Positions 37,772 to 49,058 of a stretch of 64,000 nucleotides of DNA are shown piece by piece. Origin of the DNA: Thermoplasma volcanium GSS1 (GTDB taxonomy: Archaea; Thermoplasmatota; Thermoplasmata; Thermoplasmatales; Thermoplasmataceae); assembly GCF_000011185.1 (NCBI RefSeq), contig NC_002689.2, positions 1,488,001-1,552,000 on the forward strand, written 5' to 3'. Made by a program: the position numbers and the translations under genes. Position 1 is the stretch's first letter; the number at the start of each line of letters is the position of its first letter. The notes under the pieces are model-generated. The model had not been told where the DNA came from, made no database searches, and saw nothing but the letters and a program-made list of their open reading frames with translations.

Positions 37772-38025
37772 TATTTCATTCGCAATCTAAACCTGCTTAT
37801 ATTATTGCGGCTATAGCATTCTTTTAATATTATTGCCAGCACTTTCCATACATTATTAGCTTATATTCGACTTAATCTGATAGATATTTTTAGAAGGCAG
37901 AAGAAATTATACTTAAGCAATTCATATTAAAGTTCATTGGGCGGTTAGCCTATGATCATCTTTAGTGAGAATAATTTTATAGAAGAAAGTATGCATACGT
38001 TTAAACTAGGTTTGAATTGATCTGT
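37772..38025. other. AT-rich spacer with promoter
   Basis: No gene seen. A TATA-like TTTAAAC at 38000-38006 lies about 25 bases before ATG 38026, giving a leaderless start for the aldolase gene. Confidence 0.5.
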
Positions 38026-38682
38026 ATGTACGAGAAGGAAAAGGAACAGGTTGTCGAAGCCTGCCGCAGGATTGCCCAGGATGGATTGACTGTTGGTTCA
38101 TGGGGGAATATAAGCGTAAGGGCAGATGATGGAAAAATTGCGATTACTCCAAGCGGAAAAAATTACAACAAGACGGAAAAGGAGGATATCGTTATAACGT
38201 CTATAGATGGAGATATCCTGGAAGGCCATCTCACCCCTTCCAGCGAGAGACTTATGCACTATGAGATCTACAGAAAAAGGAGTGACGTAAAAGCAATAGT
38301 CCACACGCATTCTGTATATTCTTCAATACTTTCTGTTGTAGACGATGATCTTCCTGCTATAACGGAAGACGTCATAATGATCCTCGGGCGGAGTGTAAGA
38401 GTGGCAAAGTATGCCATGACTGGCACAGTTGATCTAGCAAAAAACGTGGTAGAGGCTCTCGGCGATTCAAACGCAACTATAATGAAAAACCATGGGGCAG
38501 TTGCAGTCGGCAAGGACATCGATCGTGCCATGGCAGCTGCCTATGTGCTCGAAAAATCAGCCAAAATATATGTGATGGCAAAACTGCTTGGGAAAGTTTC
38601 AGCCGTTCCAGATGATGATGTAGACAAGCTAATCGGAATCAGCGAAGCCTATTTAAAACAGTGGGACCGCTGGAAAAAATGA
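38026..38682 (+). CDS. Class II aldolase (fuculose-phosphate aldolase-like)
   Basis: A 218-residue zinc-dependent class II aldolase/adducin-fold enzyme. The front GLTVGSWGNISVRADDGKIA is the phosphate-binding loop and ITPSGKNY follows. The zinc ligands are the histidines of AIVHTHSVYSSILSV and IMKNHGAVAVGKD. The catalytic acid is the glutamate of AITEDVIMILG. Members cleave fuculose-, rhamnulose- or ribulose-phosphates; the exact substrate is unknown. ATG 38026 is preferred over TTG 38017. Confidence 0.85.
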   Translation: MYEKEKEQVVEACRRIAQDGLTVGSWGNISVRADDGKIAITPSGKNYNKTEKEDIVITSIDGDILEGHLTPSSERLMHYEIYRKRSDVKAIVHTHSVYSSILSVVDDDLPAITEDVIMILGRSVRVAKYAMTGTVDLAKNVVEALGDSNATIMKNHGAVAVGKDIDRAMAAAYVLEKSAKIYVMAKLLGKVSAVPDDDVDKLIGISEAYLKQWDRWKK

Positions 38683-39619: not shown

Positions 39620-40192
39620 ATGGATAAATACAAGTTGTTTGCTCTCGTTTCCCTTGGAATATTAATTTCAGTGGCTGCATTCTATGGTGCCCGTGAGTTG
39701 GCTAGCAGGGAGATCGGGTCAAGCGGTGGCTATATTACAAATTCGGAGCTCAACTCATTAAACATCACGCCACCTGGCGTTCAGGTATCATCGAACCAAT
39801 CTGCAATATACATAAACAACTCCACCACTTTGCCAGTTTTGATGGGGCCAATGTATGCACCAAGCATGTATAGCTTTGAAATACTCAGACTCATAAATCC
39901 AACTATAGTGGTAAAAGAAGGGGTGAGCGTGCATTTCATAGTTATCAACGTGGACACTGATTCTTACCACAACTTTGCAATAAGCAATCGCGGACCACCA
40001 TACCCATACATGGTTGGCATGATGGGTTTAGGATTTGAATACAAGGCGCCTTATTTACCACCTGTCCACTCAGATCTCTACGCTTACTCAGAGTTCAATT
40101 ACACTTTTTCCAGTATTGGGGATTACTGGTACCTTTGCACGTATCCTGGCCACGCAGAGAATGGGATGTATGGAGAAATAATTGTACGCTAG
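39620..40192 (+). CDS. Blue copper protein (sulfocyanin/rusticyanin-like)
   Basis: A 190-residue exported cupredoxin. A hydrophobic anchor lies at about residues 7-22. The type 1 copper ligands are visible: histidine 117 in DSYHNFAIS and the C-terminal loop YLCTYPGHAENGMYG with Cys173, His178 and Met183. The same spacing is seen in sulfocyanin and rusticyanin. It probably carries electrons on the outer membrane face towards a terminal oxidase. Several N-x-S/T sequons suit an acid-exposed protein. GGAGGT precedes the ATG. Confidence 0.88.
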   Translation: MDKYKLFALVSLGILISVAAFYGARELASREIGSSGGYITNSELNSLNITPPGVQVSSNQSAIYINNSTTLPVLMGPMYAPSMYSFEILRLINPTIVVKEGVSVHFIVINVDTDSYHNFAISNRGPPYPYMVGMMGLGFEYKAPYLPPVHSDLYAYSEFNYTFSSIGDYWYLCTYPGHAENGMYGEIIVR

Positions 40193-40547: not shown

Positions 40548-41492
40548 ATGGGCGCCATAACATTAATAGAGACCTTAATGCAGTATTTCTTCGTTGTTCT
40601 TACTGCTCCACTATACACCGGCATTTTAGAGAAGCTTAAGGCGATGGTTGAATCGCGTAAAGGGCCAAGCATATTTCAACCATACTATGATCTCTGGAAG
40701 CTTTCCCGGAAAATTACCGTAATACCTGCCGGCTCTGGTATATTCTTCAGGTATATCCCCTATGTGCTTTTTGGGATTTATTCCCTCATCGCATTAATAA
40801 TACCAGTAGTGATACCAGTTCCTATATACTTTACCGCCTCTGCTGATTTCCTTGGCGGCGCTATCCTTTTCTCATTAGCAGCTTTTATGAAGGCTGCTGC
40901 AGCTATGAACTCTGGAAGCAACTATGTAGCGCTTGGCGTCTCCAGATCAATGTCTTTCAACTTCCTTTCAGAAGGCACGCTAATAACAGTTTTCATAGCA
41001 GTATCTCTGCTCACTGCAACAAATAATCCGTACATAACCAATGCGTTCCTCGCCTCTCATCCACTAGCGAACCTATCCCTGGCCCATATATTCTCAACAC
41101 TGGCCTTCTTTATGCTCTTTTTTTATGAAACCGGGAAAATTCCACTGGAGAGCTCAGGTGTGCAGGAGCTTGGCATGATAGATGAAGGCCTCAACTATGA
41201 GTATAGCGGTAAACTTCTGGCCATAAATAAATGGTCATCTTATATCAAACAGTACTTGCTCGGATCTGTTCTCCTCAACGTTTTTCTTTTCCCGTGGGGC
41301 TTATTTTCGACATACCCATACTTCTTCATTGATGTTCCAGTCATGATGGCCAAATGGCTCCTCCTTATATTGATCGTACTTGTTGTTGAAACAACTCTGG
41401 CCAAACTCAGGCTGTTCAGAGTAATGGATTATCTTGCCACTGCCTTTACTTTTTCAATACTTTTCCTCATTTTTGCTGAGGTGATACCGTGA
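40548..41492 (+). CDS. Membrane subunit, HyfC/NuoH type
   Basis: A 314-residue protein with about eight membrane helices, homologous to HycD/HyfC and NuoH, the subunit that links the redox arm to the membrane arm. Typical blocks are LEKLKAMVESRKGPSIFQPY (K/R-G-P-S/N), YYDLWKLSRK, FLGGAILFSLAAFMKAAAAM, and FYETGKIPLESSGVQELGMI. It would sit next to the small and large subunits and carry part of the proton path. First gene of a six-gene operon, overlapping the next by 4 bases (GTGA). Confidence 0.9.
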   Translation: MGAITLIETLMQYFFVVLTAPLYTGILEKLKAMVESRKGPSIFQPYYDLWKLSRKITVIPAGSGIFFRYIPYVLFGIYSLIALIIPVVIPVPIYFTASADFLGGAILFSLAAFMKAAAAMNSGSNYVALGVSRSMSFNFLSEGTLITVFIAVSLLTATNNPYITNAFLASHPLANLSLAHIFSTLAFFMLFFYETGKIPLESSGVQELGMIDEGLNYEYSGKLLAINKWSSYIKQYLLGSVLLNVFLFPWGLFSTYPYFFIDVPVMMAKWLLLILIVLVVETTLAKLRLFRVMDYLATAFTFSILFLIFAEVIP

Positions 41493-42142
41493 ACAACATC
41501 GATACCGTAGTTTATCTTATATCAAGCCTGATTGCGATTTCGGCGTTTTATATTCAGGGCCAAGAATTTATAGCTTCCATGATCAGAGGGCAGTCTGTAC
41601 AGTCTGTTCTCATAGCTGTTGTTGCATTCATAATAGGGTGGCAGGAAAGGTCCTATGATTTTTTTATCCTTGGGATACTCATCATAATATTAAGGGCATT
41701 TCTTGTCAATTATTTCCTTCAAAAGAGGATCCCAAAACAAAAAGTTTACCTGTATGAGAGAAAGGTAAGCCTTTCTTATTTGTTTTTACTTGACCTAATA
41801 TTTATCGTAATATCAGTGTTCATAATCTACTCTATAGCATTTTCTGGAATTGTATTGCATTCTTTTTTGGGAAATGGCGGGAACTCCTCAGTCCTCGTTT
41901 TTCCTCTTACACTTTTCTTCCAAGGACTCTTTCTCATAGCTTCCCGACGGACGACCTTCACCCACGTAATAGGCTATGTCGAAGAGGAAAATTCCCTTGT
42001 TTTATTCGCGATGTTCCTTCTCCCTATACCCATAATAATTGAGGCAAGCGTGTTTCTTGACGTGCTTGCGCTTGTCGTGATATCCTCAATAGTTGTCCTT
42101 GAGAAATTTACACACGAACCCATGGAGGAGTTGATTGGATGA
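41489..42142 (+). CDS. Membrane subunit, HyfE type
   Basis: A 217-residue protein with about six to seven membrane helices, in the place and size of HyfE of hydrogenase-4, a NuoK-like fusion protein. FYIQGQEFIASMIRGQSVQS and RTTFTHVIGYVEEENSLVLF match that subunit type (the G-x-x-E-E-N-S block is characteristic). It starts with GTG overlapping the previous stop and ends in an ATGA overlap with the next gene. Confidence 0.8.
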   Translation: MNNIDTVVYLISSLIAISAFYIQGQEFIASMIRGQSVQSVLIAVVAFIIGWQERSYDFFILGILIIILRAFLVNYFLQKRIPKQKVYLYERKVSLSYLFLLDLIFIVISVFIIYSIAFSGIVLHSFLGNGGNSSVLVFPLTLFFQGLFLIASRRTTFTHVIGYVEEENSLVLFAMFLLPIPIIIEASVFLDVLALVVISSIVVLEKFTHEPMEELIG

Positions 42143-43482
42143 TTCCAGGAGAAATTCTTGCAGTACTGGTCGTTGTCATACCTGGCGTTGTTAACATTAC
42201 GTACCGATTGGGCATTAAGAAGGCTACGATAGTTGGAGCATCTGCGGATCTCGTAGTAGCTGGCTTAATGTATTTCCTTCGCCCGCAAACTGGGTTTTTC
42301 TACATCCAGGATTCGACTATGCTCTTCATAATAATGGTGTTGTCAGTGTATCTTTTATCAGCCATATATTCGACAAGATACCTAAAAGGCATAGAAGTTA
42401 TGGGAATTAGGGAGCCAACTTACTACCTTCTCTTAAATTTGTTCACTGCTTCAATGCTTTTTTCACTAGAGGTAAACAACTACGGGCTAATGTGGGTAGG
42501 AATTGAGGCTACAACCATATCATCAGCTCTCCTTCTTATCACTGAAAAGTCAGAAACGTCGCTTGAGGCAACGTGGAGATATATTATAATAGTTTCAGCA
42601 GGGGTAACATTCGCCTTTATATCCATAATACTAATATATTACACGCTCGGCACACTCTCAGTTTCAACTGCTATAGGATCTCATGTGCATTCTAGGATAA
42701 TGGTGCTTGCCGTATCTCTGGCGCTAATAGGCTTCGGCACAAAGGTAGGTGTATTCCCTGTGCATACATGGCTTCCAGACGCCCACAGCGAAGCACCATC
42801 TCCCGTCAGCGCTATGTTTTCAGGAGTACTTCTTCCCACAGCACTCTATGTCCTTTACAGGGTTTATGAGATAGAGCCTGTTAGGGGGCTTTACGTATGG
42901 TTTGCCGTAGTTTCGATAGTTGCAGCATCCATATTCATGGGATATCAGGCCAGATATAAGAGAATGTTCGCTTATTCGACCATGGAGAATATGAATCTTG
43001 CACTTCTGGGAATTGCAGTTGGTGGTTCGCTCGGCTTTACTGGAGCGCTTCTACTTCTGCTTTCGCATAGTTTCGGAAAGGCTGGCGCTTTCTACTCTTC
43101 AGGGAATATACTCAGGTTTACTGGAAAGAAAGAAATTGCTGAGATAAACGGCATGCATACGTCCATGCCATACACATCCACCTCACTACTGATGTCGTCT
43201 CTTGCAGTTACAGGAGCACCACCCTTTGGAACATTCTTTGGTGAATTTTTGATCCTCTCAGGCGTACTTTCACTACACATGTACGTCCAGTTCATAATAG
43301 TAATAGTATTCCTTGCTGCGGCATTCATATCAATGAATTATAATGTGACCGGAATGATATTCAATGGAAATTGTCCCAATATCGAGAAAGATCGATTGAT
43401 GCCTGCTCTCTCTATATTTTCTTCAGTGATCCCCCTTTTTATTGGAATTTTCTTTCTGGTGGTTTATAATGAAATATTATAG
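42139..43482 (+). CDS. Antiporter-like membrane subunit, HyfF/NuoN type
   Basis: A 447-residue proton-translocating subunit with about 13-14 helices. The conserved glutamate of the transport path is in MWVGIEATTISSALLL (helix 5). The broken helix carries KVGVFPVHTWLPDAHSEAPS, and the later lysine region FAYSTMENMNLALLGI is present. It belongs to the Mrp/NuoL-M-N antiporter family and would pump ions when the redox arm turns over. It overlaps the large-subunit gene by 14 bases. Confidence 0.9.
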   Translation: MIPGEILAVLVVVIPGVVNITYRLGIKKATIVGASADLVVAGLMYFLRPQTGFFYIQDSTMLFIIMVLSVYLLSAIYSTRYLKGIEVMGIREPTYYLLLNLFTASMLFSLEVNNYGLMWVGIEATTISSALLLITEKSETSLEATWRYIIIVSAGVTFAFISIILIYYTLGTLSVSTAIGSHVHSRIMVLAVSLALIGFGTKVGVFPVHTWLPDAHSEAPSPVSAMFSGVLLPTALYVLYRVYEIEPVRGLYVWFAVVSIVAASIFMGYQARYKRMFAYSTMENMNLALLGIAVGGSLGFTGALLLLLSHSFGKAGAFYSSGNILRFTGKKEIAEINGMHTSMPYTSTSLLMSSLAVTGAPPFGTFFGEFLILSGVLSLHMYVQFIIVIVFLAAAFISMNYNVTGMIFNGNCPNIEKDRLMPALSIFSSVIPLFIGIFFLVVYNEIL

Positions 43483-44638
43483 GTTTGGAAAACCTGAAGG
43501 CAGATTCGTTGGTAATACTGAGAAGTACTCTGTATACGAGCACATTTTATCTGATCAGCGCCGTGAAATTCCCTCTGAATCATACCGCAATTTACCTGGA
43601 GAGTTTACCTTCAATTATGGCCCTGCAACAGGAGGCTTGATTGAATCTGTTGCCTTTGACTTCCACACCCCCGGTGAACTGATCAAGCATGTCGATGTAT
43701 ATCCATACATAAAGACAAGGAAGATTAAGGTAAGGGGCCTATCTCCAGAAGATGCCCTACTCCTAGTAGAGAGGATCAATGGATTTCATGCTGCATCCCA
43801 TGCCGTAGCATTCGAGATGGCAGTGGAAGACGCATTAAATATCGATGTTCCTGAAGAGGTACAGTATTCAAGGATCATAATGCTTGAACTGGAGAGAATG
43901 AGGAGCAACCTTGAGGTCGTAAAGAGGCTATGCGAACCTGCTGGTTTTGGTGTTCCGCAGAACCAGATCGCATACCTAAGGGAGAATATTGCAAGAATAA
44001 TAACATCGTTCGCAGGGCACAGGTATTTCTTTTCATCTTCGTACGTGGGCGGATGCCAGTTCAACGGATTGGTCTTAGAAAGTGTGATCGAAGATGTGAA
44101 GGAAGAATTTGAGGGAATTTTTAACGATTTGCTGCAATCCAAAATATTCTTAAATAGGCTTCAGAACAATGGGAAGATTAGCAGCAGCGATATGCTTGGT
44201 CCCGCTGCAAGGGCCGCCGGCATTGAAGTGGACGCTAGGATTGATGAAAAAAGGCTTCCGTATAGTAAACTTGGCTTCAAGCCAATTGTGTTCGATGAGC
44301 CAGATGCGTTCGGCCGGTTTTATGTGAGAAGCAAGGAGATCCTTTCTTCTGCGGATTTGATCTCTAAAGCGATACGTTTCAGCGGAAACTCTCCGCCAGC
44401 AAAAATCGAAAAGACTAATGGTGAAGGTGCTGCAAGGGTCGAAAGCCCGCAAGGGGATCTTTTCTATTATGTAAAAATCAACGACGGGAAGATTTCCGAC
44501 GTCCAGATATCTTCGCCGTCACTGTTAAACATTGAGGCCTTTAAGAAATCAATGATAGGCAATATATTCACAGATTACCACTTCAACTGGGAGAGTTTTG
44601 GCATATGGGTATCTGAGCTCGCGGTGGTGATACAATGA
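43469..44638 (+). CDS. Hydrogenase large-subunit homologue without nickel ligands
   Basis: A 389-residue homologue of the NiFe-hydrogenase-4 large subunit/NuoD. In true hydrogenases two CxxC motifs hold the NiFe centre. Here the first is replaced by LVERINGFHAASHAVAFEMA (about residues 98-117), and the protein ends FGIWVSELAVVIQ with no cysteine. NuoD-like structural blocks such as EYSRIIMLELERMRSNLEVV remain. It therefore cannot be a hydrogenase and more likely forms a quinone- or other-donor site as in complex I or the Ehr complexes. The start is put at ATG 43469 with GGTGG before it. Confidence 0.88.
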   Translation: MKYYRFGKPEGRFVGNTEKYSVYEHILSDQRREIPSESYRNLPGEFTFNYGPATGGLIESVAFDFHTPGELIKHVDVYPYIKTRKIKVRGLSPEDALLLVERINGFHAASHAVAFEMAVEDALNIDVPEEVQYSRIIMLELERMRSNLEVVKRLCEPAGFGVPQNQIAYLRENIARIITSFAGHRYFFSSSYVGGCQFNGLVLESVIEDVKEEFEGIFNDLLQSKIFLNRLQNNGKISSSDMLGPAARAAGIEVDARIDEKRLPYSKLGFKPIVFDEPDAFGRFYVRSKEILSSADLISKAIRFSGNSPPAKIEKTNGEGAARVESPQGDLFYYVKINDGKISDVQISSPSLLNIEAFKKSMIGNIFTDYHFNWESFGIWVSELAVVIQ

Positions 44639-45303
44639 GCAGTATTTGGTTTCTTAATGGGGTGAAAAAAGGAATAAAGACAGAAAGATATCCTTATGCA
44701 GAGCCCGTTTCAGCGCCACAGTGGCCATCACGCCTGTCCGGGCATGATGGGGGCAATTGCCCTGTAGATGCAATAACGCCTGATGGATGGGTTATGGAAA
44801 AATGCATATTCTGCCGGAGATGCCTGCCAGATTATAAGCCGACGGGTGATCAACGCATTTTCACCATCAAGAAGACTGAAGATACGTTCAGGAGATCGTT
44901 TCATGTCTTCCCCATTGATTCCGGGGCTTGTGGCGCCTGCAACATGGAATTTCTAAGCATATTTTCTCCACAGTACGATGCAAACAGGTTAGGAATATTT
45001 ATGGTTAATACACCGCGCTATGCGGACGCTTTAATAGTAATGGGGGTGATGACTCCTGGAATGAAGGAGGCCCTAGACAGAGCCTATGAGGCAATGCCAG
45101 AGCCAAAGCTTGTCATTGCTATGGGAGCATGCGCTGTTACAGGCGGCATTATGGGTGAGAACCCTCTAGACAGAGAAAAGTACAATGTGGAAATTGCGGG
45201 ATGCCCGCCTTCGCCGTACACATTGATTGCTGCACTCAACGCTGCGATGAAAGATAAGAGAAAAGCTGATTATTTTGAATCGAAAAGACAAGAGGTGCAC
45301 TGA
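44635..45303 (+). CDS. NuoB-like small subunit fused to a short ferredoxin module
   Basis: A 222-residue protein. The back half is the NuoB/HycG small subunit with all four N2 cluster cysteines: DSGACGACNMEF (Cys99, Cys102), MGACAVTGG (Cys166) and AGCPPSP (Cys190). The front has a one-cluster ferredoxin-like module, NCPVDAITPD (Cys42) then KCIFCRRCLPD (Cys57, 60, 63), enough for one more 4Fe-4S cluster. This gives a two-cluster electron wire in one chain, standing in for the separate NuoI/HycF protein. Coupled by ATGA to the large subunit. Confidence 0.88.
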   Translation: MSSIWFLNGVKKGIKTERYPYAEPVSAPQWPSRLSGHDGGNCPVDAITPDGWVMEKCIFCRRCLPDYKPTGDQRIFTIKKTEDTFRRSFHVFPIDSGACGACNMEFLSIFSPQYDANRLGIFMVNTPRYADALIVMGVMTPGMKEALDRAYEAMPEPKLVIAMGACAVTGGIMGENPLDREKYNVEIAGCPPSPYTLIAALNAAMKDKRKADYFESKRQEVH

Positions 45304-45305
45304 TT

Positions 45306-47075
45306 ATGCTTCCTTATATTGGGCCAGTTTTATTCGGCGTCGCATCCCTACTCGGCCTATTCAACAGGAAAATATCCTATCTTATGTTGTCTTTATCATC
45401 GGTTGTATTTGCAGCTACGCAGTTCGCGTATGGCAATTACCTTTCCTATTACTCGGTCATAGCGGCAATTGTATGGGTATTTGCCGGTGTGTATTCGCTA
45501 TCATACGGCGAAAGGTACGGAAAATGGCTAGCATCACTTATGTCGCTCACAGTGCTTGGAATGTCTATAATATTGGTTGGAGACAACTATCTTGTCCTTA
45601 TAGCAGGCTGGGAGATAATGTCTGTGCCCTCTTATGCCATAGTCGCCCTTAACAAATCGCAGAAAAGCCCTGCATTCACTTTTATGACGTTCAGTGAATT
45701 CAGCACAGTCCTAATAATCGCTGGATCAATATCATCATTTGTTGCCTCAAAAGATAGTTCGTTCAGCTTTATACATCTAACAACGTTCGCTCCGCTTCTT
45801 CTAATTTCCTTCGGTTCACTCATCAAAATGGGGATGTCGCCCTTCATGATAAGTGAGTGGCTGCCTATAGCCCACGGCAATGCACCAGCAAACGCATCTG
45901 CTGTATTCAGCGCAACGATGACTCTGATGGGCGTCTTCCTTATAACAAAGATGATATTTTTAACTTCTGATAGCCCTGCACTTCTTTACATAGGAATTCT
46001 CTTGCTGATCATCGGGAGCATATCCATTTTGTTTGCATCTATCTATGCTTATGTATCCGAGAATATGAAGATGCTTGGTGGATTCAGCACTATAGAAAAT
46101 CAAGCGGCAATTCTTTCCGCATTCGGGCTTTATCTTGTGACTAGCAATAGCACCCTTCGTGAGTTTGTTCTTGCTACGATAATTATCTTTTCGTTATCTC
46201 ATGCCGTTTCTAAGACAGGCCTATTCCTCTCAATCGGCAGCACGAGGGGAGAGTATTTTGGAGAAGCTAGGGCACCTGAAGACAGGTGGATGCGCCTCGG
46301 GACACTTCTTTCTACGCTGTCTCTATCTGGTTTGTTTCCTGCCATTGGTGGACTGGCAGTGTGGATGCTCCTTGAATCCTTCTTCATGCAGGCTTATTTG
46401 GGCGGATATATTGGAATTCTGGCAATAATAGTAGGATCAATTGTTGCAATCTCGGAAGGCATGGTAACTGGATCTATGATGAAAATACTGTCATTTTCAG
46501 CTCTATTCAGGGCTAAGAAGGGACATGCCAGCAGGGTGGAAACCGTAACTGTATTCAGTGTTGGATTAACTATACTCATATTCTTTGTTATTTCCATAAA
46601 ACTTATTCCATCGGCTTTTCTTGGAGGCATACCATCCGTTCTTGTATTCAAAGGCTTCACCATAGAATCAAGGTTTAATATAGCGGATTTCGGGCTGGTT
46701 TCGCCGGATTACGTAATAGCACTCATAACAGCATTTTCACTTGCATCATATGCCGTCTTTAGAAAACCAAGAACTCGAACAGCAGAAGTCTGGAACAGTG
46801 GCAGATCCCTTTCAAGCGAATATACTTCATTTGCCTATGCTAATAACATAAGGCTCATGCTCCGTAGAATCCTCAGAACAAGGATGGGCAATGGCAACCA
46901 GCCAATATCCATAATAGATGTTTTTTGGTTTGCAATGAACTCTATCGGAAGAGGCTATAGGTGGATGTGCAAGAATGCAACACAGAAATTTATGAACAGT
47001 TCACTCGCTTGGTACATGATTTACATGATAGTTGCATTTATGGTGGTAATCATAATGGCTGTTGTTATTTATTAA
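45306..47075 (+). CDS. Antiporter-like membrane subunit, HyfB/NuoL type
   Basis: A 589-residue protein with about 14-16 helices. It has the helix-5 glutamate (LVLIAGWEIMSVPSYAIVAL) and the broken-helix lysine region (SLIKMGMSPFMISEWLPIAH followed by GNAPANASAVFSATMTLM). A basic stretch near the end (MLRRILRTRMGNGNQ) precedes a final membrane helix, as in HyfB. Third ion-translocating subunit and last gene of the operon; GAGGTG before its ATG lies inside the previous gene. Confidence 0.88.
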   Translation: MLPYIGPVLFGVASLLGLFNRKISYLMLSLSSVVFAATQFAYGNYLSYYSVIAAIVWVFAGVYSLSYGERYGKWLASLMSLTVLGMSIILVGDNYLVLIAGWEIMSVPSYAIVALNKSQKSPAFTFMTFSEFSTVLIIAGSISSFVASKDSSFSFIHLTTFAPLLLISFGSLIKMGMSPFMISEWLPIAHGNAPANASAVFSATMTLMGVFLITKMIFLTSDSPALLYIGILLLIIGSISILFASIYAYVSENMKMLGGFSTIENQAAILSAFGLYLVTSNSTLREFVLATIIIFSLSHAVSKTGLFLSIGSTRGEYFGEARAPEDRWMRLGTLLSTLSLSGLFPAIGGLAVWMLLESFFMQAYLGGYIGILAIIVGSIVAISEGMVTGSMMKILSFSALFRAKKGHASRVETVTVFSVGLTILIFFVISIKLIPSAFLGGIPSVLVFKGFTIESRFNIADFGLVSPDYVIALITAFSLASYAVFRKPRTRTAEVWNSGRSLSSEYTSFAYANNIRLMLRRILRTRMGNGNQPISIIDVFWFAMNSIGRGYRWMCKNATQKFMNSSLAWYMIYMIVAFMVVIIMAVVIY

Positions 47076-48122: not shown

Positions 48123-49058
48123 TCAAATATAAAGATTCAGGATGAAAAGAAAAAATAACCCGAATACAGCAGAAATTAGTGAACTCACAGTCCAGTTAAG
48201 CAGTATTGAACGGAATATCATGGGAGTCACCACGTGAGATTTCATAGATCGTTTTGCACCATAAATGGACATGATTATTGTCTGGTTAATTGATGCGTTG
48301 TATCCAACAAGATTCCCTGATATTATAACTATAGCCTCAGTAAGTTGAGCAGCTGCTGCAAGAGGGGCATTTGTCTTTACAACCTCGGTTCCAACCCTGC
48401 GAATCAGCCTCTGGCCCCATGTTATCAGTCCCAGCCCAATGAAGAATCCTCCAAAGACATAGGGCACTATTCCAGTCAGAATTCCAACTTTTACCAGAGG
48501 GGAAATAGCGCTGCTTACGTCATTTGATCCCAGTGTAAAAGAGCTAAAAACACTGCTGCCTATGATTATGATCTTGAGTTTTCGGCTATCATCAGCTAAC
48601 TTTGATACCAGTTTGGGCGCAAGCAGATAAGACAACAGCATTGCAGCCAGTGGCATTAAAATCCACATAGAGAGGACGATCTCTATTCCGCCATACATCA
48701 ATTTGATATTTGAGGCCAATCCAACAAATAAAAGGGAAAAGGTGTATACCTGAATAGTCGAAGCAGGCAGTTTCAGTATTGTCGATATTAGAATAGCGAC
48801 AGAAGCTCCTAACAAGGCTGCCGTCAATTGCCTAATCGTTGTAGTCCCAACAAGGGAGAAAGCATATGTATGCACAACGCCCGAGCTTGCAGTTATAGTT
48901 CCGAGAAAGGCAAATGTGGCAGCTATCACGGTTGCCTGCCTTATTGTGAGTGACTTTGAACCATAGGCCATCCCCATTACTGCACCGGAGTAGTGGCTCC
49001 CCATATTCCAAGCGAAGAGTGCACTTGCAAAAAGCAGAATGTAAGATAACACCAGCAT
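48123..49058 (-). CDS. PiT-family inorganic phosphate (or sulfate) transporter
   Basis: A 311-residue membrane protein with about ten helices and the two inverted PiT repeats. The first signature is ALFAWNMGSHYSGAVMGMAY, which carries changes relative to the usual G-A-N-D. The second, FTLGSNDVSSAISPLVKVG, keeps G-x-N-D. It would use the proton or sodium gradient to import phosphate. The altered first repeat may change coupling or substrate. It lies alone between two tRNA-like repeats, so it may have arrived as one insertion. Confidence 0.8.
   Translation of the reverse strand: MLVLSYILLFASALFAWNMGSHYSGAVMGMAYGSKSLTIRQATVIAATFAFLGTITASSGVVHTYAFSLVGTTTIRQLTAALLGASVAILISTILKLPASTIQVYTFSLLFVGLASNIKLMYGGIEIVLSMWILMPLAAMLLSYLLAPKLVSKLADDSRKLKIIIIGSSVFSSFTLGSNDVSSAISPLVKVGILTGIVPYVFGGFFIGLGLITWGQRLIRRVGTEVVKTNAPLAAAAQLTEAIVIISGNLVGYNASINQTIIMSIYGAKRSMKSHVVTPMIFRSILLNWTVSSLISAVFGLFFLFILNLYI

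Follow-up and report, generated by a model that had tools for sequence, protein, structure and literature searches.

A nickel-free relative of hydrogenase 4 in Thermoplasma volcanium assigned to the Ehr family, with a candidate role as a ferredoxin-dependent proton pump

Energy-converting hydrogenase-related (Ehr) complexes are found in Geobacter, Sulfobacillus, comammox Nitrospira and ammonia-oxidising archaea, and have in common a large subunit resembling that of group 4 hydrogenases but without the RxCGxC and DPCxxC motifs, together with membrane subunits resembling HyfB, HyfC, HyfE and HyfF. In Sulfobacillus, six syntenic genes lie near each catalytic subunit, the NiFe motifs are absent, and the function was given as unknown (PMC4378227). 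Ehr has been discussed in other phyla (PMC6349859; PMC10284858), with Lentisphaerae sequences named within an Ehr cluster (PMC6349859), and a group-4a-like Ehr has been described in ammonia-oxidising archaea (PMC10432482). Closer to the organism considered here, the available part of one study reports that both Ni-binding motifs are missing from the putative group 4 hydrogenases ('putative hydrogenase 4') of acid-mine Thermoplasmatales (PMC3750248), and that of another lists six consecutive loci of Ferroplasma acidiphilum, FAD_0579-0584, as Mrp/hydrogenase-related (PMC5473848). Both sets have the gene order described below, and the label Ehr is not used in those parts of the two papers. A literature search for Ehr combined with Thermoplasma or Mbx gave no match. 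This kind of complex is already published, as the Sulfobacillus Ehr and as the motif-less proteins of acid-mine Thermoplasmatales.

Better characterised relatives provide the terms of comparison. Hyf and Hyc of Escherichia coli are, with a WS1 hydrogenase, the nearest NiFe relatives of the T. volcanium complex in a tree of large subunits, and HycE is its best structural match, but they retain four NiFe cysteines and have, besides maturation genes, a separate Fe-S subunit (HyfH/HycF) and the additional Hyf subunits A and D. Pyrococcus MBH differs from the complex in having a NiFe site, Mrp small subunits and a separate 2x[4Fe-4S] subunit. Its structure (6cfw) nonetheless supplies, for each of the soluble subunits, the solved chain nearest in sequence, and the two complexes share a glutamate (E21/E58) and a four-cysteine proximal cluster. 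Pyrococcus MBS (6u8y) resembles the complex in having lost the NiFe site and in lacking H38/Y87, but has a three-cysteine proximal cluster, no E21, and Mrp subunits (PMC7684303). Respiratory complex I has the core fold and the antiporter-like pumps in common with it and is distinguished by a CC motif, H38/Y87 and the NuoA/C/I/J genes. The six-gene cassette of T. volcanium contains none of these complex I traits, and no genes for Mrp small subunits.

The genome of T. volcanium GSS1 is a single contig of 1,584,804 bases, and the window (the whole stretch analysed, 64,000 nucleotides) covers positions 1488001-1552000; coordinates below are those of the window unless otherwise stated. Six open reading frames on the forward strand at 40548-47075, each overlapping or abutting the next, were identified from a list of open reading frames and profile searches, in the order HyfC-HyfE-HyfF-large-small-HyfB (Table 1). 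The profile matched by the HyfE-like protein is the 'hydrogenase 4 membrane subunit' and that matched by HyfC is NADHdh/NuoH. The C-terminal half of the HyfE-like subunit is NuoK-like, with GY(V/I)EEEN and EAS conserved in the alignment. For the large subunit, a start at ATG 43472 is more likely than one at TTG 43442. A separate, true NuoD within a Nuo cluster (complex I) is encoded elsewhere in the genome.

Table 1. Genes of the cassette and key positions in the large subunit (coordinates within the window)
Feature	Coordinates	Strand	Length and basis
HyfC/NuoH-like membrane anchor	40548..41492	+	314 aa; PF00146 E=1.1e-28; alignment with E. coli NuoH, HyfC, HycD
HyfE-like membrane subunit	41489..42142	+	217 aa; NF008556 E=2.9e-5, below cut-off; 4-bp overlap with each neighbour
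HyfF antiporter-like subunit	42139..43482	+	447 aa; NF005042 'hydrogenase 4 subunit F', 710 bits (cut-off 437)
Large subunit, NuoD/HycE-like, without NuoC domain	43472..44638	+	388 aa from ATG; Complex1_49kDa and NiFeSe_Hases profiles
E58, equivalent to the proton-relay glutamate E21 of MbhL and retained; NuoD has Gly	43643..43645	+	alignment
N103-G-F-H106, replacing first NiFe motif C-G-x-C	43778..43789	+	alignment
W379-V-S-E382, replacing second NiFe motif C-x-x-C	44606..44617	+	alignment
Small subunit, N-terminal single [4Fe-4S] motif fused to NuoB/MbhJ-like domain	44635..45303	+	222 aa; Oxidored_q6, PF01058 E=1.6e-24
HyfB antiporter-like subunit	45306..47075	+	589 aa; NF005046 'hydrogenase 4 subunit B', 809 bits (cut-off 460)

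In the aligned large subunit, the positions of the four NiFe cysteines are occupied by N103, H106, W379 and E382. The stretches that read ERxCGxCxxxH and SxDPCxxC in hydrogenases are here ERINGFHAASH and ESFGIWVSE, so that neither the RxCGxCxxxH signature of group 4 [NiFe] hydrogenases nor DPCxxCxxH/R is present. None of 35 aligned Ehr-type large subunits has a cysteine at any of the four positions, and the loss is, therefore, not due to chance or to an error in a single gene. The protein terminates six residues past the second motif and has no cleavable tail. A 26-row alignment of homologues (A1) has 44 invariant residues, including E58, N103 and W379, whereas H106 and E382 are kept at 90% or more. 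E58, the counterpart of the glutamate identified in the MBS paper as the key proton-reduction residue of MbhL (PMC7684303), is present in every Ehr and hydrogenase row covering the position. At the positions of the complex I quinone residues NuoD H38 and Y87 stand I57 and G104, a difference that sets the protein apart from complex I. The AlphaFold model of the subunit (pLDDT 91.8) had as its best PDB match the formate hydrogenlyase subunit HycE (E=4.6e-22, TM 0.82), followed by the 49-kDa subunits of complex I. The large subunit is the least conserved of the Ehr subunits, with a mean identity of 48%, versus 65% for HyfC, which could mean that it is under little catalytic constraint. This contrasts, across the loci and genomes compared (L042-L056), with complex I, in which NuoD and NuoB rank among the best conserved subunits.

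The ligands of the proximal cluster of the small subunit (C99xxC102, C166 and C190) were found in 15/15 homologues, as were the four cysteines (C42 and C57/C60/C63) of one extra [4Fe-4S] motif, making eight conserved cysteines in all and, therefore, a two-cluster electron wire. The six-gene set of the original prediction (HyfC-, HyfE-, HyfF- and HyfB-like proteins with a large and a small subunit) was thus recovered from reading frames and profile matches, and its two statements about cysteines, that they are missing from both nickel-binding CxxC motifs of the large subunit and that all those of N2 (the proximal cluster) are retained in the small one, agree with the alignments. The C99xxC102 loop aligns without gaps to MbhJ, the closest solved chain by sequence, with no shortening of the MBS type, and the tandem CC of NuoB is absent; the small subunit is, therefore, neither NuoB-like nor MBS-like.

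Thermoplasma species respire sulfur, which would suit a sulfane-sulfur reductase resembling MBS, passing electrons from ferredoxin to polysulfide at an open-coordinated proximal cluster. Anaerobic respiration is mentioned for the order in the available part of one study (PMC3750248), and MBS, too, lacks both the NiFe site and the NuoD residues H38/Y87 (PMC7684303). Such a function is, however, distinctly unlikely for T. volcanium. The cluster loop of MBS is three residues shorter and carries three ligands; its E21 glutamate is absent, whereas E58 is invariant here; MbsL falls near NuoD in the tree, away from Ehr (a partial sequence at a weakly supported node); Mrp small subunits of the MBS type are lacking; a haem-copper oxidase is present in nearly all carriers of the complex, which is missing from the four other Thermoplasma genomes. 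MBS-like chemistry was rejected as contradicted by the length of the cluster loop and by E58.

The residues associated with pumping are largely conserved in the membrane subunits. HyfF keeps E123 (the TM5 glutamate), K202 (the TM7 lysine), H310 and E369 (TM12) in the alignment, and HyfB keeps E103, K174, H299 and K303, including the TM5 glutamate and TM7 lysine of antiporter-like subunits; the charged TM12 position of HyfB is V352, and is V or T in the aligned type-A homologues. HyfC keeps D48, E142, E201 and E218, corresponding to NuoH D63, E157, D213 and E228, but has G204 and Q206 where E. coli NuoH, HyfC and HycD share the loop acids E216 and E218, according to a single alignment that is unsure in the loop. 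As judged from these residues, the complex probably pumps protons.

Fifty-two large subunits were compared in a maximum-likelihood tree with NuoD as the root, in which bacterial Ehr is represented by bacterial-type rows rather than by the published Geobacter and Sulfobacillus sequences. All 35 cysteine-less Ehr-type proteins fell in one clade (support 100/99), apart from NuoD. This clade includes a Lentisphaerae locus (L039), indicating common descent with bacterial Ehr. It groups with HycE/HyfG and a WS1 hydrogenase (97/98), and the NiFe enzymes around this group are paraphyletic. The topology is most simply explained by the NiFe site having been lost once, an explanation that hinges on the NuoD root. 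Types A-D, the archaeal rows, are united in a single clade (100/100), below which the bacterial-type rows, including those from Lentisphaerae and Elusimicrobia, join. The archaeal branch differs from other Ehr in a large subunit without a NuoC domain and in one extra [4Fe-4S] motif on the small subunit, rather than the two of the bacterial-type relatives L039 and L040; its N/H/W/E pocket contrasts with the C-terminal SFNLSYxG of the bacterial-type rows. Further archaeal types (C and D) occur in other Thermoplasmata families (L062, L063, L066-L069 and L079); some of them carry a large extension at the N-terminus and have other residues in the pocket. Four Thermoplasmata loci (L064, L065, L075 and L078) have a bacterial-type Ehr, with a longer large subunit and the SFNLSYxG C-terminus, and HypD is present in 3/4 of these cases.

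With its group-4-like large subunit devoid of Ni/Fe ligands and its contiguous antiporter-like HyfB, HyfC, HyfE and HyfF, the complex is almost certainly an Ehr, not a hydrogenase. The HypD, HypA and HycI families were absent from the whole T. volcanium genome, in searches positive for the control genomes. The phylogeny suggested in the original prediction, among NuoD, group 4 and Ehr, places the sequence inside the Ehr clade, in keeping with the likeness to Ehr proposed there, and the further claim that the complex is no hydrogenase is upheld by the lost NiFe cysteines and by the absence from the genome of the maturation genes (HycI protease, HypA and HypD) that would have counted against it. 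Two membrane subunits score far above the cut-offs of hydrogenase-4 models and E58 is kept, as would be expected of a functional [NiFe] hydrogenase with unusual ligands; this is, nonetheless, extremely improbable, given the four cysteines missing from 35 Ehr-type proteins, a genome with no HypD, HypA or HycI, and the absence of HypD from 45 of the 46 type A/B carriers.

In a search of 300 genomes of the same class, with types A, B and C assigned from the match scores, most members of the family and two genomes from a second family of the order proved to have close relatives of full length. Matches in the four other Thermoplasma genomes were only at the level of NuoD. The six genes are in identical order in 20 Thermoplasmata loci, and no shared neighbour gene or dedicated redox partner was found beyond them in these 20 loci, with aconitase and dehydratase recurring in only a few. 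A rusticyanin gene (TIGR03095, 262 bits, cut-off 147) lies immediately upstream of the T. volcanium cassette, at 39620-40192. It was considered as a conserved partner and rejected, as it adjoins the cassette only in T. volcanium among the loci seen and its product should lie on the outer side of the membrane. Of the type A/B carriers, 43/46 have a haem-copper oxidase (subunit I), which links the complex to an aerobic chain; for types A, B and C together, HypD is absent from 64/66 and the oxidase present in 61/66. Both contrasts with the rest of the 300 genomes gave Fisher p < 1e-12, a descriptive value only, as the genomes are related. T. volcanium is itself among the carriers without the oxidase. 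With an oxidase in nearly all carriers, the family taken as a whole is unlikely to serve an obligately anaerobic role.

The favoured model, to which a probability of roughly 0.5 can be attached, is that of a nickel-free, hydrogenase-4-derived archaeal Ehr that would pass electrons from ferredoxin to an acceptor in the pocket and pump protons. It starts from features legible in the genes themselves (subunit make-up, loss of NiFe ligands, retention of Fe-S ligands and most pump residues, ancestry, missing maturation genes); the donor, the acceptor, the direction of electron flow and the pumping are what we infer. The original prediction, an ion-pumping redox complex with neither donor nor acceptor named, is narrowed accordingly. 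Reduced ferredoxin would be supplied by the 2-oxoacid:ferredoxin oxidoreductases of the cell and would dock on the small subunit, from which electrons would pass through the N-terminal and then the proximal [4Fe-4S] cluster to a small acceptor. A soluble donor fits the lack of a partner dehydrogenase in the 20 neighbourhoods, and ferredoxin is somewhat favoured as this donor because of that lack and because ferredoxin-dependent 2-oxoacid enzymes, along with a NuoEFG-less complex I, are known from a related genus (PMC5155288). An acceptor other than hydrogen very probably sits in the vacated NiFe pocket between the large subunit, the small subunit and HyfC, which would be lined by N103, H106, W379, E382 and the retained proton-relay E58. 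The likeliest candidate, put forward tentatively, is a membrane quinone bound in a mode unlike that of complex I, and the reaction would drive proton translocation via HyfC, HyfE, HyfF and HyfB. Counting against the model are the lack of the quinone-site residues known from complex I (I57 and G104 stand in their place), the low conservation of the large subunit, and the presence in the same genome of a complex I that could serve the same reaction.

Acidophiles maintain a very large proton gradient, which could, conversely, drive electrons uphill from quinol to ferredoxin and so supply the biosynthesis of acidophiles that oxidise iron or organic compounds with reductant. In the neighbourhoods inspected, the genes close to the complex, identified by eye, are of a metabolic or housekeeping nature (aconitase, sugar-acid dehydratase and chaperones), with no dedicated donor adjoining, as such a reverse-running pump would allow. 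The direction of flow is not readable from sequence, but the carriers are mostly heterotrophs, in which reduced ferredoxin is expected to come from 2-oxoacids, and reverse operation is, on this basis, unlikely. Ferredoxin-type wiring and the absence of quinone residues would also suit a ferredoxin:NAD(P)+ oxidoreductase, as once proposed for Mbx, which has been cited as a ferredoxin:NADP+ complex (PMC6349859). This is improbable, given that in profile searches none of the six proteins was a subunit binding flavin or NAD(P), and none is common to the neighbours in the 20 loci.

Beyond what was already published, the present analysis adds a gene order shared by 20 loci without a common partner, the retention of E58 with the absence of complex I and MBS traits, the single extra [4Fe-4S] motif, the oxidase-present/HypD-absent pattern of the carriers, and a probable horizontal acquisition by T. 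volcanium. Ehr complexes are widespread, and the archaeal form, with six genes and no partner, is the simplest seen here. As the proton residue is kept and all the metal ligands are lost, specific mutants and acceptor assays are possible, and the available part of one paper describes a carrier, Ferroplasma, as a cultivable acidophile (PMC5473848). Such work would reveal how the hydrogenase chassis has been re-used for non-H2 chemistry beyond complex I and MBS.

Between T. volcanium and genome G206, identity is 75-95% for the cassette, whereas it is about 53-71% for the membrane subunits of complex I. The antiporter-like subunits of complex I in G206 are closer to those of genome G122 (66% and 64%) than to those of T. 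volcanium (57% and 53%), whereas HyfF of its Ehr is closer to that of T. volcanium (86%) than to that of G122 (69%). Because of this conflict, and of the absence of the complex from four congeners, the cassette was probably acquired horizontally by the volcanium lineage. The flanking genes at 38017-38682 and 48123-49058 had no matches or only distant ones in the four other Thermoplasma genomes (in searches of which one lacked a positive control), and the cassette may lie in a species-specific island. An empty insertion site was not located in other Thermoplasma, since the flanking genes are themselves absent or distantly matched there. It is conceivable, though quite doubtful as a whole, that the archaeal Ehr is an aerobic-era ferredoxin:quinone pump with an Asn/His/Trp/Glu pocket in place of nickel ligands and the proton-relay glutamate kept, a third re-use of the hydrogenase chassis beside complex I and MBS, and that its horizontal acquisition here compensates for a complex I with a split nuoL. 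This nuoL, which lies outside the window, is interrupted by a frame-shifting tandem duplication of 97 bp, near-exact, at L089:3964-4157 (G000:C1:1160963-1161156); the gene is intact in the congener G075. The duplication is either an error of assembly or a genuine mutation that may be reversible.
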